DNA of 64,000 nucleotides from Streptomyces sp. DT2A-34 (lineage in GTDB: Bacteria > Actinomycetota > Actinomycetes > Streptomycetales > Streptomycetaceae): assembly GCF_030499515.1 (NCBI RefSeq), contig NZ_JASTWJ010000001.1, positions 372,001-436,000 of the forward strand, written 5' to 3'. The notes beneath the pieces are model-generated. The model was not told the origin of the DNA. It saw only the letters and a program-made list of their open reading frames with translations, and did no database searches. Position 1 is the stretch's first letter. The number at the start of each line of letters is the position of its first letter. This document shows positions 26,349-31,843 of this stretch, one piece after another. The translations under genes were made by a program, and so were the position numbers.

Positions 26349-26460
26349 GCATAGAGCGTAGAGCGCAATCCGGGTCGGCGAATCCTCCGAGTCACCCACC
26401 CGTCCGTCCGCTGTCGTGCGGGGGCGGCGGCTCCGGGGAACCCTGGAGGGGGAGGTGGCG

Positions 26461-27507
26461 ATGGATCCCGTCGAGGCGCTGAACCGGATCGCGTTTCTGC
26501 TGGAGCGGTCCCTGGCACCGACGTATCGCGTACGCGCCTTCCGTACGGCCGCCCGGGTCCTGTCCGAGCTGCCCGAGGACGAGGTGCGCGAGCGGGCGGC
26601 GGCCGGGTCGCTGGAGTCGCTCAGGGGCGTCGGTCCGAAGACGGCCCAGGTGGTGCGGGAGGCGCTGGCCGGTGGGACGCCGGGCTATCTGGAGAAGCTG
26701 GAGGGCGAGGCCGAAGAGTCCGCCGGGCCTGAAGGCCGGGCCGGCGGGCGGCTGCGGGCACTGCTGCGCGGGGACTGCCATCTGCACTCCGACTGGTCCG
26801 ACGGCGGCAGCCCGATCGAGGAGATGGGCAGGGCCGCGGCGGAGCTCGGCCACGAGTGGGCGGCACTCACCGACCACTCACCGCGGCTGACCGTCGCCCG
26901 CGGGCTGTCGGCCGACCGGCTGCGCGAGCAGCTGGACGTGGTGGCGGAGCTGAACGAGACCTGGGCGCCGTTCCGGCTGCTCACCGGCATCGAGTGCGAC
27001 ATCCTCGAGGACGGCTCGCTCGACCAGGAACCCGAGCTGCTGGAGCGGCTCGACGTCGTGGTGGTGTCCGTGCACTCCAAGCTGCGCATGGAAGCCCGCG
27101 CGATGACGCGGCGCATGGTGACCGCCGTACGCGATCCGCACGCGGACGTACTGGGGCACTGCACGGGCAGGCTGGTGACCGGGCGGGGGCGGCCGGAGTC
27201 GGAGTTCGACGCGGACGAGGTGTTCGCCGCGTGCGCCGAGTCGGGTACGGCGGTGGAGATCAACAGCCGTCCGGAGCGGCTGGATCCGCCGCGCGGGCTG
27301 CTGCGCCGGGCCGTCGAGGCGGGCGTGCTGTTCTCGATCGACACCGACGCGCACGCGCCCGGCCAGCTGGACTGGCAGATCCTCGGCTGCGCCCGCGCGG
27401 AGGAGTGCGGGGTGCCGGCCGAGCGGGTGGTGACCACCTGGGACCTGGAGGAACTGCTGGCCTGGACCCGTGCGGGCCGGACACCGTCCCGAGTGGCGGG
27501 CGCCTGA
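26461..27507 (+). CDS. PHP-domain phosphoesterase with N-terminal HhH region (PolX-like)
   Basis: A 348-residue protein. The N-terminus (about 1-80) resembles the helix-hairpin-helix part of X-family polymerases (ELPEDEVRERAAAGSLESLRGVGPKTAQVVREAL). The C-terminal PHP domain begins CHLHSDWSDGG (metal ligands) and continues with ALTDHSPRLT, LTGIECDIL, VVSVHSKLR, LGHCTGRL and DTDAHAP. This is the set of histidines and aspartates of a trinuclear-metal hydrolase. The polymerase palm domain is absent. It may act in DNA repair or as a histidinol-phosphatase-like enzyme. GGAGGTGGCG precedes the chosen ATG. Confidence 0.85.
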   Translation: MDPVEALNRIAFLLERSLAPTYRVRAFRTAARVLSELPEDEVRERAAAGSLESLRGVGPKTAQVVREALAGGTPGYLEKLEGEAEESAGPEGRAGGRLRALLRGDCHLHSDWSDGGSPIEEMGRAAAELGHEWAALTDHSPRLTVARGLSADRLREQLDVVAELNETWAPFRLLTGIECDILEDGSLDQEPELLERLDVVVVSVHSKLRMEARAMTRRMVTAVRDPHADVLGHCTGRLVTGRGRPESEFDADEVFAACAESGTAVEINSRPERLDPPRGLLRRAVEAGVLFSIDTDAHAPGQLDWQILGCARAEECGVPAERVVTTWDLEELLAWTRAGRTPSRVAGA

Positions 27508-27564
27508 CGTGGTACTCGTGCGGCTCCGGCCCTGGAGGAACGGCGCGTGAGGAAGGGACAGCAC

Positions 27565-28254
27565 ATGGAACGGGCGGCCGTGTTCGACGTCGACGGAACC
27601 CTCGTCGACACCAACCATCTGCACGTCACGACCTGGTGGGAAGCCTTCCGGCAGGCCGGACACCAGGTGCCGATGCACGCCGTCCACCGGGCCGTCGGTC
27701 TCGGCTCGACCGACCTGATCGCCCACCTCCTCGGCGACGACCGGGACACAGACCAGGACGCCGGGTTGAGCGCCGCCCACAAGGCCCTGTACGGGCAGTA
27801 CTTCGACCGGCTGCCCCCGCTGCGGGACGCGGGCCGGCTGCTGCGGCGCCTGGACCGCAACGGCTGGCGAGTCGTCCTCGCGACCTCGGCGGGCGGCGCC
27901 GAGCTGTCCGCGCTGCGTCGGGCGCTCTCCGCGGACGACGCGATCACCGCCACCGCGAGCGCCGACGACGTCGAGGAGGGCAAGCCCGCGCCGGAGCCCG
28001 TCGAGCATGCCCTGGAACTGGCCGGGGTGCCCGCCGAGCGCGCGGTCTTCGTCGGCGACACCGTGTGGGACATGCGGGCCGGCACCCTGGCCGGCGTGCG
28101 CTGTGTGGGCGTCCTGTGCGGCGGCATCCCCCGCGCCGACCTGCTGGACGCGGGCGCGCAGGCGGTCTACGAGGATCCGGCCCACCTGCTGGCGTCCCTG
28201 GCGGACAGCCCCTTGGCCGACGTGCCGGGCGATGCGGACCCGAACCGCGGATGA
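27565..28254 (+). CDS. HAD-superfamily hydrolase (phosphoglycolate phosphatase-like)
   Basis: A 229-residue HAD hydrolase. Motif I is DVDGTLVDT (about 8-16), motif II ATSAGG, motif III lysine in EEGKPAPEP, and motif IV VGDTVWD. A helical cap (about 20-90) marks subclass I. It should dephosphorylate a small phosphometabolite; the substrate is unknown. GGAAGGGA precedes the ATG. Its stop overlaps the FUSC start as ATGA, so the two are translationally coupled. Confidence 0.87.
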   Translation: MERAAVFDVDGTLVDTNHLHVTTWWEAFRQAGHQVPMHAVHRAVGLGSTDLIAHLLGDDRDTDQDAGLSAAHKALYGQYFDRLPPLRDAGRLLRRLDRNGWRVVLATSAGGAELSALRRALSADDAITATASADDVEEGKPAPEPVEHALELAGVPAERAVFVGDTVWDMRAGTLAGVRCVGVLCGGIPRADLLDAGAQAVYEDPAHLLASLADSPLADVPGDADPNRG

Positions 28255-29483
28255 CGCGTGTCACGAATGCGGCGCCCCGGCCCACGCGCCGGGGCGCCCG
28301 GACGCTGGAATCGATACGACAGCGGGCGCTCGGGGAGGCCCGCGTGACCGACGCCCTACGGCGGGACGCGCATGCCGTCGGCAGGGCCGCCCGCGCCGCC
28401 TGGCGCGGGCCGGGCCGGGAGCGGGACCTGGCCGTGCAGTCGCTCAAGGCGGCGGCCGCGGCACTGCTCGCCTGGCTCGTGGGGAGCGTGTGGCTGGGCG
28501 ATCCGATGGCCCTGATGGCGTCCTGGGTCGCTCTGATCCTGGTGCAGGCCACCGTGTACAGCTCACTGCTGCGGGCCGCGCAGCAGTTCGCGGCGATCTG
28601 TGCCGGGACCGTACTGGCGTCGGCCGCGCTGGCGTTCACCGGGAGCACCGTGGGCGCGCTTGCCCTGTCGATACCCCTGCTGATGCTGCTGGCCAACTGG
28701 CCGCGCTTCGGTGACCAGGGCGTCTTCGGCGCGACCACGGCGCTGTTCACCCTCGCGTCGGGCGCCGCCGGAGCGTCCGCGGTCGGGCACCGGGTCGGGC
28801 AGGCCGCTCTCGGCGCGGTGATCGGGGTCGCCGTCAACGCGCTCGTCCTGCCGCCGATCCATCTGCGGGACGTACGGGAGAACCTCGCGGCGCTGGCCCG
28901 GGAAGCGGGAGACCTCCTGCACACCGTGGCCGTGGATCTGCGGGAGACCGAATGGAACGCGCAGAGCGCGGCCGGCTGGTCGAGTGCCTCGGCACACTTG
29001 GAGCGCCGGCTGGAGGCGCTGCGGTCCGCGCGTGGCTGGAGCCGGGAGAGCCTGCGGCTGACCGCCGGACCGCTGCGTGGCCTTCGGCGCCCTCCCGCGC
29101 CGGCACCGCCGGAGGAGGAGGACGAACGCTGGAGCCGTGTCACCGGGCACATCAGGGCGCTCACCCGGACCCTGGCCGTCGCGGCCGACGATGGCCGCAC
29201 GCCCCTGCCGCCCGACGGGCCTGCGCTGCGGGCCTACGCCAGGCTGCTGGAGCTGATCGGCGAGGTCTGCCACACGGAGAGCCGCCGGCTGCTCGGGGCC
29301 GACGGTGACACCTGTCCGGACGGCCGGACCGAGGCCGCGATGCTTCGGCTGCACCAGGAGTTGCAGGACTTGCTGCGGGATCACGCCGGTCAGGGCGCGG
29401 CCCGGACGACGGTTCTCGGGACCCTGCTGCTGCAAGCCGAGAACGTGTGGAGCGAGACTGTTCCGGCAGGTCGGCGGGGGTGA
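28251..29483 (+). CDS. FUSC-family membrane protein (aromatic acid exporter-like)
   Basis: A 410-residue protein. Six or so hydrophobic segments (about 62-200, for example KAAAAALLAWLVGSVWLG and VGALALSIPLLMLLANW) belong to the FUSC/aromatic-acid exporter family. A long cytoplasmic C-terminal half (about 205-410) is rich in helices and contains a Pro/Glu linker. The family exports weak organic acids such as p-hydroxybenzoate. The ATG overlaps the HAD stop. A second, only distantly similar FUSC gene lies at 41.6-42.9 kb. Confidence 0.83.
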   Translation: MTRVTNAAPRPTRRGARTLESIRQRALGEARVTDALRRDAHAVGRAARAAWRGPGRERDLAVQSLKAAAAALLAWLVGSVWLGDPMALMASWVALILVQATVYSSLLRAAQQFAAICAGTVLASAALAFTGSTVGALALSIPLLMLLANWPRFGDQGVFGATTALFTLASGAAGASAVGHRVGQAALGAVIGVAVNALVLPPIHLRDVRENLAALAREAGDLLHTVAVDLRETEWNAQSAAGWSSASAHLERRLEALRSARGWSRESLRLTAGPLRGLRRPPAPAPPEEEDERWSRVTGHIRALTRTLAVAADDGRTPLPPDGPALRAYARLLELIGEVCHTESRRLLGADGDTCPDGRTEAAMLRLHQELQDLLRDHAGQGAARTTVLGTLLLQAENVWSETVPAGRRG

Positions 29484-29513
29484 CGCGGATCACCTCAAAT
29501 CGCCCCTTGCGTC

Positions 29514-29539
29514 GGAACACCGAAAGGTCGTTGCCCGTT
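29514..29539 (+). promoter_or_regulatory. ECF-sigma-like promoter of the structured RNA candidate
   Basis: GGAAC (29514-29518) and GTT (29537-29539) are separated by 18 bp. This is the layout of SigR-type ECF promoters. The predicted start about 7-9 bases later falls at the edge of the first long RNA stem. Confidence 0.45.
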
Positions 29540-29546
29540 GAACGAC

Positions 29547-29710
29547 ACGTGGGTGCGGATGGGACAGTGTCCCCGGGCCTCACCTTTTGCCCACAGGGAC
29601 GATCGTTCGGCTGAAGCCCTGTGGAGCGTTTCGCCGAGAGGCGACCGCCATCCGCACCCACCACTGACCGCCCCGACCGGCACTCCCCCGTCCGGTCGGG
29701 GCTTTCTCCT
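29547..29710 (+). ncRNA. Unassigned structured small RNA candidate (about 160 nt)
   Basis: The gap between the FUSC and SDR genes holds a nested set of perfect pairings. The outer stem is 14 bp: 29549-29562 (GTGGGTGCGGATGG) with 29648-29661. Inside are an 8-bp stem 29591-29598/29617-29624 (CCACAGGG/CCCTGTGG), and a 5-bp hairpin 29631-29644 closed by a GAGA tetraloop. A competing short hairpin at 29561-29573 (GGGAC/GTCCC) is also possible. A strong intrinsic terminator follows. An ECF-like promoter is placed correctly upstream. The long closing stem, asymmetric bubble and small 3'-side hairpin recall 6S RNA architecture, but I cannot assign a family. Confidence 0.55.
29670..29710 (+). terminator. 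Intrinsic terminator of the small RNA candidate
   Basis: GCCCCGACCGG (29670-29680) and CCGGTCGGGGC (29692-29702) form a perfect 11-bp stem with an 11-nt loop, followed by TTTCTCCT. The U-rich tail is on the plus strand only. Confidence 0.8.
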
Positions 29711-29736
29711 GTCCGGGCGCGTGCCCACGGCTCGGC

Positions 29737-29767
29737 TTGACTTCGAGAGCACTCCCAGTCGTAGCGT
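29737..29767 (+). promoter_or_regulatory. MerR-type promoter of the SDR gene (19-bp spacer)
   Basis: TTGACT (29737-29742) and TAGCGT (29762-29767) are separated by 19 bp. This overlong spacer is typical of MerR-family activated promoters. The spacer region has an imperfect dyad GACTTCGAGAG/ACTCCCAGTC. The start of transcription would fall at or next to the ATG at 29775, implying a leaderless mRNA. Confidence 0.5.
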
Positions 29768-29774
29768 CCCCGGC

Positions 29775-30737
29775 ATGAGCACCGCACAGCACAAGATCGG
29801 CTCCGGCTTCGACGCCACGAGCACCGCCGCCGACATCCTGAACGGCATCGACCTGACCGGCAAGCTCGCCCTCGTCACCGGCGGCTACTCGGGCCTCGGT
29901 CTGGAGACCACCCGGGCGCTCACCGAGGCGGGCGCCCATGTCGTCGTCCCCGCCCGCCGCCGGGCCGCCGCCGAGGAGGCGCTGGCCGGCCTCACCGGCG
30001 TCGAGGTGGACGAGCTGGACCTCGGCGACCTGGAGAGCGTGCGCGGCTTCGCCGAGCGGTTCCTCGCCTCCGGCCGCACGGTCGACTTCATGATCGGCAA
30101 CGCCGGGATCATGGCCTGCCCGGAGACCCGGGTGGGACCTGGCTGGGAGGCACAGTTCGCGACCAACCACCTCGGCCACTTCGCCCTGGTCAACCGTCTG
30201 TGGCCGGCGATCGAGCCGGGCGGCGCCCGCGTGGTCTCGGTGTCCTCACGGGCCCACCACTTCTCCGGGATGCGCTGGGACGACGTCCACTGGCGGCAGG
30301 GCTACGACAAGTGGGAGGCGTACGGGCAGGCGAAGACGGCGAACGTCCTGTTCGCCGTCCACCTCGACCAGCTCGGCGCCGACCACGGGGTACGGGCCTT
30401 CTCGCTCCACCCGGGCGGCATCCTCACCCCGTTGCAGCGCCACCTCCCGAAGGAGGAGATGGTGGCGCGCGGATGGATCGACGAGCAGGGCAACGTGCTC
30501 GCCCCGGAGGGCTTCAAGAGCCCGGCGCAGGGCGCGGCCACGCAGGTGTGGGCCGCGACCTCGCCGCGGCTGGACGGCATGGGCGGGGTCTATCTGGAGG
30601 ACTGCGACATCGCCGAACCCGCCGCCGACGGCGACGAGCGCAGCGGCGTCAAGGGCTGGGCGACCGATCCGGAGCAGGCCGCACGGCTGTGGCAGCTGTC
30701 GGCGGAGCTGACGGGCGTGAACGCGTTCGCCGCGTAG
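29775..30737 (+). CDS. Short-chain dehydrogenase/reductase (retinol dehydrogenase-like)
   Basis: A 320-residue SDR. The NAD(P) site is VTGGYSGLG (TGxxxGxG, about residues 37-45). NAGI follows in IGNAGIMAC, with a catalytic serine in VSVSSRAHH and the active YxxxK in YGQAKTANVL. It resembles the WWOX/retinol-dehydrogenase-like SDRs that oxidise or reduce various alcohols and ketones. The open frame extends upstream through the small RNA and its terminator, so the true start is the ATG at 29775. No Shine-Dalgarno is seen there, consistent with the leaderless promoter. It is followed 77 bp later by an epimerase-like gene. Confidence 0.87.
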   Translation: MSTAQHKIGSGFDATSTAADILNGIDLTGKLALVTGGYSGLGLETTRALTEAGAHVVVPARRRAAAEEALAGLTGVEVDELDLGDLESVRGFAERFLASGRTVDFMIGNAGIMACPETRVGPGWEAQFATNHLGHFALVNRLWPAIEPGGARVVSVSSRAHHFSGMRWDDVHWRQGYDKWEAYGQAKTANVLFAVHLDQLGADHGVRAFSLHPGGILTPLQRHLPKEEMVARGWIDEQGNVLAPEGFKSPAQGAATQVWAATSPRLDGMGGVYLEDCDIAEPAADGDERSGVKGWATDPEQAARLWQLSAELTGVNAFAA

Positions 30738-30814
30738 CGCGGGGTCCGGAGCGTGCGGGCGCCTCGGACGGGGTACTCGGACGCTCCCGCCCCCACTCCC
30801 GTAAGGAGCCGCAG

Positions 30815-31843
30815 GTGAGCAGCGAACCGGCCCGCAGGATCGTGGTCACCGGTGCCACGGGCAATGTCGGTACGAGCGTGGTACGGCTCCTCTCGGAGGA
30901 TCCGGAGGTCGACTCCGTGCTGGGGCTGGCCCGCAGGACTCCCGAGTGGTCGCCGCCGAAGACGGACTGGGCGGCGGTCGACCTGGCGTCCGAGCAGGCC
31001 GACCTGGTGCCCCTGTTCGAGGGCGCCGATGCCGTCATCCATCTGGCCTGGGCGTTCCAGCCCACGCACGATCCGGCCGTGACCTGGCGGACGAACGTGC
31101 TGGGCAGCATCCGGGCCTTCGACGCGGTGGCCGCGGCGAGGGTCCCGACGCTGGTGCACGCGTCGTCGGTCGGCGCGTACTCGCCGGGGCCGAAGGACGA
31201 CGCCGTGGACGAGTCGTGGCCGACACACGGCTGGCCCGACGCCGCGTACTGCCGGGAGAAGGCCTACCTGGAGCGGACGCTGGACACCTTCGACCGGGCC
31301 CACCCCAGGGTGCGTGTGGTCCGGATGCGGCCGGCGTTCCTGTTCAAGCGGGAGTCGGCGAGCGAGCAGCGCCGTATCTTCGGCGGCCGCTTCCTGCCGG
31401 GGCCGCTGGCGCGCCCGGAGCTGCTGCCGTTCCTGCCCGACATTCCGGGTCTGCGGGTGCAGGCCCTGCACACGGACGACGCGGCCGAGGCGTATCTGCT
31501 CGCCGTGCGGTCCGACGTCCATGGTGCGTTCAACCTCGCGGCCGAGCCCCCGGTCGACGCGGCCCTGCTGGGCGAGATGCTCGGCGCCCGCCCGGTCCGG
31601 CTCCCGCCCACGGCGGCCCGCTCGGCGATCGCCGCGGCGTGGGGGCTGCACCTGCTGCCCGCCTCCCCGCACCTCTTCGACGCGGTGCTCAGGCTGCCGC
31701 TGATGGACTGCACACGCGCCCGCACGGAACTGGGCTGGCGCCCGGAGCGCACGGCGCCCGAGGTGCTGGAGGAGTTCCTGCACGGCATGCAGCGCGGCGA
31801 GGGGGCCCCGACGGAGCCGATGCGGGGCCGCAAGGTGGGCTGA
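30815..31843 (+). CDS. NAD-dependent epimerase/dehydratase (extended SDR)
   Basis: A 342-residue extended SDR. It opens with IVVTGATGNVGTSVVRLL (GxxGxxG). It has VIHLAWAFQPT, VHASSVGAYSPG (catalytic Ser) and YCREKAYLE (YxxxK). Such enzymes act on nucleotide sugars or other hydroxy substrates. The lack of further signature leaves the substrate open. The GTG at 30815 is preceded by AAGGAG. It is probably transcribed with the SDR gene upstream. Confidence 0.83.
   Translation: MSSEPARRIVVTGATGNVGTSVVRLLSEDPEVDSVLGLARRTPEWSPPKTDWAAVDLASEQADLVPLFEGADAVIHLAWAFQPTHDPAVTWRTNVLGSIRAFDAVAAARVPTLVHASSVGAYSPGPKDDAVDESWPTHGWPDAAYCREKAYLERTLDTFDRAHPRVRVVRMRPAFLFKRESASEQRRIFGGRFLPGPLARPELLPFLPDIPGLRVQALHTDDAAEAYLLAVRSDVHGAFNLAAEPPVDAALLGEMLGARPVRLPPTAARSAIAAAWGLHLLPASPHLFDAVLRLPLMDCTRARTELGWRPERTAPEVLEEFLHGMQRGEGAPTEPMRGRKVG

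Follow-up and report, generated by a model that had tools for sequence, protein, structure and literature searches.

The intergenic gap at 29484-29774 of the window (the whole 64-kb stretch of DNA analysed here) appears to be an independent RNA gene, in which a promoter, a 113-nt core and a terminator follow one another, with a CRP-like site just upstream. The layout is that of an independent transcription unit, the fold is a covarying three-way junction, and the RNA, mostly preceded by the same stress-type promoter, occurs in many soil actinobacteria and on some of their plasmids, spread over many genera of the class and with paralogues. The reading that best joins these results, and which we consider on balance the probable one, is of a family of free-standing small RNA genes outside Rfam 15, induced by stress through a sigma factor of the sigma-R/SigH type and acting in trans via the junction strand. 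Should this reading be true, antibiotic producers among the actinobacteria would have, in their sigma-R/SigH thiol-stress response, a widespread RNA arm outside Rfam. The near-invariant junction, the many natural paralogues and the conserved promoter make this a directly testable RNA. The model of the RNA also lets annotators label a gene that has been blank in Streptomyces, Micromonospora, Actinomadura, Actinoplanes, Nonomuraea and others.

Layout of the locus

The gene upstream of the gap (28248-29483, + strand) encodes an ArAE_1/FUSC-like membrane protein, assigned from profile scores; its stop codon ends at 29483 and its start codon is uncertain. The FUSC label given to it in the first-pass annotation is weak but plausible, as the ArAE_1 score of 25.5 bits passes the cut-off of 22 while the FUSC_2 score of 23.6 falls below the cut-off of 25.6. 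Downstream, a short-chain dehydrogenase (SDR, adh_short) is encoded at 29775-30737 on the same strand, its ATG at 29775.

Between these genes, and again on the + strand, the -35-like element GGAAC (29514-29518) is followed after 18 nt by the -10-like element GTT (29537-29539), with a transcription start predicted at about 29546-29549. The closing stem P1, a perfect 14-bp helix, has its 5' strand at 29549-29562 and its 3' strand at 29648-29661. Within it lie the joining strand J1/2 (29563-29588), recognised from conservation among copies and holding GUGUCCCCGGGCCUCACC at 29567-29584; the arm P2, with its 5' strand at 29589-29598 and its 3' strand at 29617-29627; the hairpin P2a (29603-29614), in which UCG and UGA are paired around UUCGGC; and the hairpin P3 (29632-29643), CGCC-GAGA-GGCG with a GNRA loop. 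The 8-bp internal stem formed by CCACAGGG (29591-29598) and CCCTGTGG (29617-29624) becomes a 10-bp helix once a bulged A at 29625 is allowed for. An intrinsic terminator occupies 29670-29709, where an 11-bp stem (29670-29680/29692-29702) is followed by TTTCTCCTGT, the U-rich tail. With both ends predicted, the RNA would be about 160 nt long including the terminator. The perfect P1, the 8-bp internal stem, the GAGA hairpin, the 11-bp terminator and GGAAC-N18-GTT had all been described in the first-pass annotation, and each sits where it was placed there.

Conservation and covariation of the fold

That the stems exceed what chance would give had been proposed from the single sequence. P1 on its own is only mildly unusual: it is the sole perfect 14-bp inverted repeat with a 50-130-nt loop within the 64-kb window, but the order-1 Markov expectation for such a repeat is 0.16 per 64 kb, and at least one arose in 15 of 100 simulated windows. 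The + strand of 29514-29720 folds at -103.4 kcal/mol (z = -3.9); the - strand reaches z = -2.9, and folding energy alone therefore singles out the + strand only weakly. The decisive evidence is conservation together with covariation, which is beyond the reach of one sequence.

Searching 392 genomes of the genus at the DNA level gave matches that were 80-94% identical, mostly over 150-210 nt, as well as more divergent second copies in some of the genomes. When 50 loci were oriented and aligned, the promoter, P1, J1/2, P2, P3 and the terminator proved to be conserved while the flanks diverged. In a MAFFT alignment of 34 of these loci (A1), 97.1% of pairs are standard, and two-sided changes are seen in 9 of 26 pairs, making 70 such cells. 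Of 500 shuffles, none came up to A1 in paired percentage, cell count or covariation score, and one did so in the number of changed pairs; for further pair types the count in A1 was unexceptional, 291 of the 500 reaching it.

A larger alignment, A3, comprises 101 distinct relatives fitted to R1, a covariance-type model of the RNA, and hence leans towards the R1 structure; it holds 515 two-sided cells and has a covariation score of 0.507 as compared with 0.127 in shuffles. Two-sided changes affect every one of the 12 modelled P1 pairs and 6 of the 10 P2 pairs. Two P2 pairs are non-standard in 51 and 58 of the 101 sequences, many of them U-U. P2a lies outside the model; at its columns 75 and 88 there are 50 C-G and 36 U-A pairs with no mismatch among the 86 of 101 sequences that have letters on both sides. 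A mutual-information scan finds pairs of P1, P2 and P2a, together with three column pairs that are not partners. Compensatory changes in the stems, the check proposed in the first-pass annotation, are thus numerous across homologues in P1, P2 and P2a. The P2/P2a arm is variable in length, and in some genera there are forms of 84-91 nt with a P2 of only about 5 bp. A pseudoknot between the loop and P3 was dropped as an idea, since P2a covaries as a hairpin.

Promoter, CRP-like site and terminator

The ECF-like (SigR-like) promoter noted in the window is conserved across genera. GGAA-N15..20-GTT, with GTT 6-15 nt before P1, is present in 133 of 145 copies and missing in 12, as against 16 of 2647 control windows; where several spacings fitted a copy the one nearest 18 was taken, whereas the control counted any spacing of 15-20. 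Duplicate cores had been removed, leaving 146 copies, and one with less than 60 nt upstream was left out. The control windows for this count, as for the CRP-like and terminator/core counts, were drawn from the same loci. The spacer is N18 in 128 of the 145 copies and N19 in 3, and the fifth base of the -35-like element is C in 101, T in 26 and G in 6.

Sigma-R promoters are given as GGAAT-N18-19-GTT in the part of PMC9205884 used here, and this spacing is found both in the window (GGAAC-N18-GTT) and in the copies with N18. In S. coelicolor, however, sigma-E shares a GGAAC-like -35 element, and 59 of 100 sigma-E sites are spaced by 18 bp (PMC10771440, in part); the promoter is therefore only probably of the sigma-R/SigH type, with sigma-E as the alternative. 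The S. coelicolor sigma-R regulon includes tmRNA and ribosome-associated factors and is induced by translation-inhibiting antibiotics, according to the sections drawn on from PMC4921905. Provided that the RNA gene is itself transcribed, it would be induced by thiol, oxidative or antibiotic stress through an ECF factor of the sigma-R/SigH type.

CRP-type regulators bind palindromes like GTGA-N6-TCAC. Such a palindrome stands at 29480-29493, where it overlaps the stop codon of the upstream gene and is centred about 62 nt before P1. The looser pattern GTG-N8-CAC occurs 30-110 nt upstream in 63 of 71 copies of the Streptomyces set (loci L009-L079 and loci titled Streptomyces) and in 22 of 74 others, compared with 74 of 2401 control windows; relative to P1 its centre is mostly at -62 to -64 in the Streptomyces set and mostly at -47/-48 in the others. 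The stricter GTGA-N6-TCAC is found in 33 of the 71, 8 of the 74 and 1 of the 2401, respectively. A CRP-family regulator may modulate the RNA in Streptomyces and in some other lineages. Upstream of L081, L150 and L182 an A-rich element of the GGAAAA type lies around 20 nt before the -35 element, at the position of the CRP-like site in Streptomyces copies. The palindrome at 29480-29493 does not figure in the first-pass annotation, and nor do the paralogues, the plasmid copies or the class-wide spread.

A terminator-like hairpin follows 110 of 144 copies, the pattern being missing in 34; it was found in 73 of 1199 control windows.

The junction strand and P3

The core is made up of P1, the arm P2/P2a, the GNRA hairpin P3 and the near-invariant strand CCCCGGGC; sequence changes are frequent in its arms, whereas J1/2 and the GNRA loop class are nearly constant. 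Of the copies, 80 were pattern-found loci (L113-L192) that were required to contain GTGTCCCCGGG and CGCCGNGAGGCGACC, so that invariance among them is partly selection, and the 69 not chosen by pattern were counted apart. CCCCGGG is present in 68 of these 69, CCCCGGGC and CGCCGNGAGGCG in 65 each and GTGTCCCC in 63. P3 reads CGCC-GNGA-GGCG in 142 of 146 copies, with GAGA in 114, GCGA in 18, GTGA in 9 and GGGA in 1; on A3 its stem is invariant and its loop keeps the GNRA class. A further paralogue type, seen among 18 copies from four multi-copy genomes, has a GCGUA pentaloop at P3 in 7 of them; a pentaloop of this type can adopt a GNRA-like fold. Likewise, the A-N-N-A/A-G internal loop and the bulge in P2 are kept while the helices swap pairs.

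The stretch that follows CCCCGGGC is lineage-dependent and reads CUCACC, CUCCAAC or CCCAAA. An anti-Shine-Dalgarno reading of CUCACC was dropped, given that other lineages have CUCCAAC or CCCAAA there. A hairpin or operator at GGGACAGTGTCCC (29561-29573) was also dropped, as one pair is broken in L048, L050 and L055 and it is absent in distant relatives.

We propose that the fold of P1, P2/P2a and P3 would keep the joining strand CCCCGGGCYYCAM in one set conformation. The CCCCGGGCYYCAM strand and P3 would then be the effector, which might act in trans by pairing with target mRNAs or with another conserved RNA; this is the least certain step. Base pairing is the commonest mode of stand-alone small RNAs, and it is ranked first for that reason only; binding of a protein or ligand is ranked a close second because P3 and the internal loops hardly vary. 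The lineage changes after CCCCGGGC argue against one fixed target. The P3 stem and its loop class are also more invariant than seed pairing requires, which would suit protein or ligand binding too.

It is conceivable, and we offer it tentatively, that this is a class-wide stress RNA of the Actinomycetes in which a rigid three-way-junction core, CCCCGGGC with the GNRA hairpin, binds a conserved machine or ligand; it would be a new functional class and not an antisense small RNA, multiplying as paralogues and travelling on plasmids. It might even serve as a global regulator of the 6S kind in a group in which 6S RNA has hardly been identified (PMC11077062, in part). More doubtful, though still to be reckoned with, is a protein- or ligand-binding RNA, either a sponge or a free-standing aptamer, whose target recognises J1/2 and P3. 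The constancy of P3, the recurrence of the pentaloop and the persistence of the internal loop and bulge amid pair swaps all favour such a role, and multiplication as paralogues suits a titrating RNA. The sole candidate partner tested, TROVE/Ro60 (PF05731; the matches were partial, about 60-75 of 442 profile positions), nevertheless showed no association with the RNA, since it matched in 27 of the 45 genomes that have the RNA and in 23 of the 35 that lack it; a Ro60-bound Y RNA was rejected on the same counts.

Comparison with known RNAs and with coding sequence

No Rfam family reaches gathering level anywhere in the window. With E values up to 10 allowed, 29350-29850 gave three unrelated weak matches only, none of them 6S, and in 25 loci of distant relatives no family reached its gathering score over the RNA and no 6S row appeared at E up to 1. 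The earlier description of an unassigned structured small RNA with its own promoter and terminator is supported by the computational checks. None of the three reading frames is open in every one of the 146 copies (they are open in 110, 102 and 56), and the frame open in 110 is partly expected in GC-rich DNA. Core lengths modulo 3 are 2 in 81 copies, 0 in 38 and 1 in 27. A small protein-coding gene was rejected, there being no shared open frame and core lengths that differ modulo 3; a known coding or riboswitch family covering the region was looked for and none was found.

The first-pass annotation was reminded of 6S RNA, which we take to be Rfam RF00013. The two are similar in overall outline, with a closing stem, an asymmetric bubble with a small hairpin on its 3' side and an apical arm, but the resemblance is one of shape only. 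6S RNA is about 160-200 nt long with long duplex arms, whereas the core here is 113 nt, or 84-91 nt in the short forms; three helices meet at the junction, one of them an invariant GNRA hairpin, and the RNA is patchy and multi-copy, with no match in 35 of 80 genus genomes. Membership of the 6S family was rejected on length and on the want of a covariance-model match. The same evidence makes it unlikely that the RNA is an RNA polymerase-binding decoy like 6S or Ms1, in which P1 and P2 would serve as duplex arms and the asymmetric junction with its 3' hairpin would mimic an open promoter: apart from the missing 6S match and the patchy occurrence, a core of this length, with a P2 of about 5 bp in the short forms, offers little duplex for such mimicry. 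Its loops also seem to be more conserved than 6S bubbles, which again counts against a decoy. In favour of a decoy are the outline and the fact that S. coelicolor has RNA polymerase binders other than 6S, namely scr3559/Ms1 and the ~85-nt scr0792, 712-fold enriched on RNA polymerase (PMC11077062, in part).

Ms1/scr3559 of S. coelicolor is an RNA of about 230 nt that lies between sco3558 and sco3559 and binds the RNA polymerase core (PMC9130861, in part). Like it, the present RNA is a stand-alone structured actinobacterial RNA with a HAD hydrolase gene nearby, although that gene is not adjacent here; at the type-1 locus it is one gene away, at 27547-28251. By description, the RNA differs from Ms1 in being shorter and in having copies in many other contexts. 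The Ms1-type synteny is with a HAD hydrolase gene (SCO3558/MSMEG_6173), and the neighbours of the present copies are heterogeneous, with a HAD hydrolase in the type-1 block. By description only, the ~85-nt scr0792 is similar as a short stand-alone Streptomyces RNA of no known class (PMC11077062, in part). Small RNAs from Streptomyces RNA-seq are likewise intergenic, conserved and structured, and none described in the sections used of PMC3765725 and PMC11678152 could be matched with this anatomy. Searches of the open PMC literature by topic and by short sequence strings, whose scope was article text, found no description of the RNA in the portions retrieved, and it may sit under a scr, sar or svr number in RNA-seq lists. 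The family is new to Rfam (Rfam 15) and, within the literature searched, to print; its kind, the stress-controlled structured small RNA, is known.

Distribution

R1 finds matches in 45 of 80 genomes of the genus (Streptomyces) at E <= 0.001, with 0-7 per genome, some of them partial. In the class, 87 of 394 genomes match at E <= 0.01, spanning 38 of the 137 genera sampled. A second model, R2, built from 104 relatives, was run on 296 genomes of the phylum; the 14 that match at E <= 0.001 all belong to the window's own class. The tally of the DNA search, 307 of 392, was not taken as a count of presence, many of its rows being near E = 0.001-0.01. A pattern scan of genome contigs gave at least 117 stretches, of which the 80 listed were used, all confirmed by R1. 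Hosts among the matches listed are Streptomyces, Micromonospora, Verrucosispora, Actinoplanes, Paractinoplanes, Winogradskya, Dactylosporangium, Catenuloplanes, Phytohabitans, Asanoa, Actinomadura, Actinoallomurus, Actinocorallia, Nonomuraea, Microbispora, Planobispora, Saccharothrix and Prescottella.

Plasmids also carry the RNA: 55 of 72,556 records have a blastn match (43 Streptomyces, 10 Rhodococcus, 1 [Kitasatospora] and 1 Nonomuraea), these being blastn matches that were not each checked with the model. No match was found in 50,697 phage records, and none of 4 pattern matches in viral contigs was confirmed by R1.

Neighbours, paralogues and plasmid copies

Type-1 Streptomyces copies share a syntenic block, at 26416-31843 in the window, of genes for a PHP/HHH_8 protein, a HAD hydrolase and the ArAE/FUSC protein, then the RNA, then an SDR and an NAD-dependent epimerase. 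S. coeruleorubidus (L183) is among the species with a type-1 copy. Other paralogues and other genera have different neighbours and orientations, often convergent; gene calls around these copies were made by a simple script and most of the neighbours are unnamed. Since neighbours and orientation differ between taxa and paralogues, and copies are found on plasmids, the RNA probably acts in trans, so far as genomic context can tell. The copies within the four multi-copy genomes are 51-87% identical and 14 of the 18 have GGAAN-N18-GTT, so they are not recent transposition copies; divergent copies with varied neighbours point to a family of RNAs that act in trans and whose paralogues are old.

A cis-acting leader or attenuator of the downstream SDR gene is, given this context, very improbable. 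A co-oriented SDR gene does follow in the window and at many type-1 Streptomyces loci, with the terminator in between, but unrelated and often convergent genes follow other copies both in Streptomyces and in other genera; a riboswitch or leader was rejected in the same way, a fixed position upstream of a co-oriented related gene being found only at type-1 Streptomyces loci. That the locus is a mobile-element-like or palindromic DNA repeat with no RNA function, as its repetition in some genomes and its presence on plasmids might suggest, is scarcely credible, being contradicted by the two-sided compensatory changes, the conserved N18 promoter, the terminators and the divergence of the paralogues, which are not near-identical and on that ground also rule out a MITE-like repeat.

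Three or four of the 18 copies are degenerate; L254, L259 and L265 are without the promoter pattern and have partly lost the core, and their genomes hold intact copies as well. Degenerate copies beside intact paralogues suggest gene birth and decay.

Seven plasmid copies were inspected and have no neighbour common to all. In 3 of the 7 regions (L230, L233 and L235) the RNA has a gene for Ku or an ATP-dependent DNA ligase within 4 kb, and a few Streptomyces chromosomal copies (cluster c9) follow a gene that, named by reading its sequence, is NAD-dependent DNA ligase-like; the proximity of ligase and Ku genes may merely reflect the gene content of linear plasmids. Tandem pairs of the RNA, around 240 nt apart and each with its own GGAAT-type promoter, occur at L097 (1001-1390) and L098 (1001-1393), and at L093 three copies lie within 1.3 kb.
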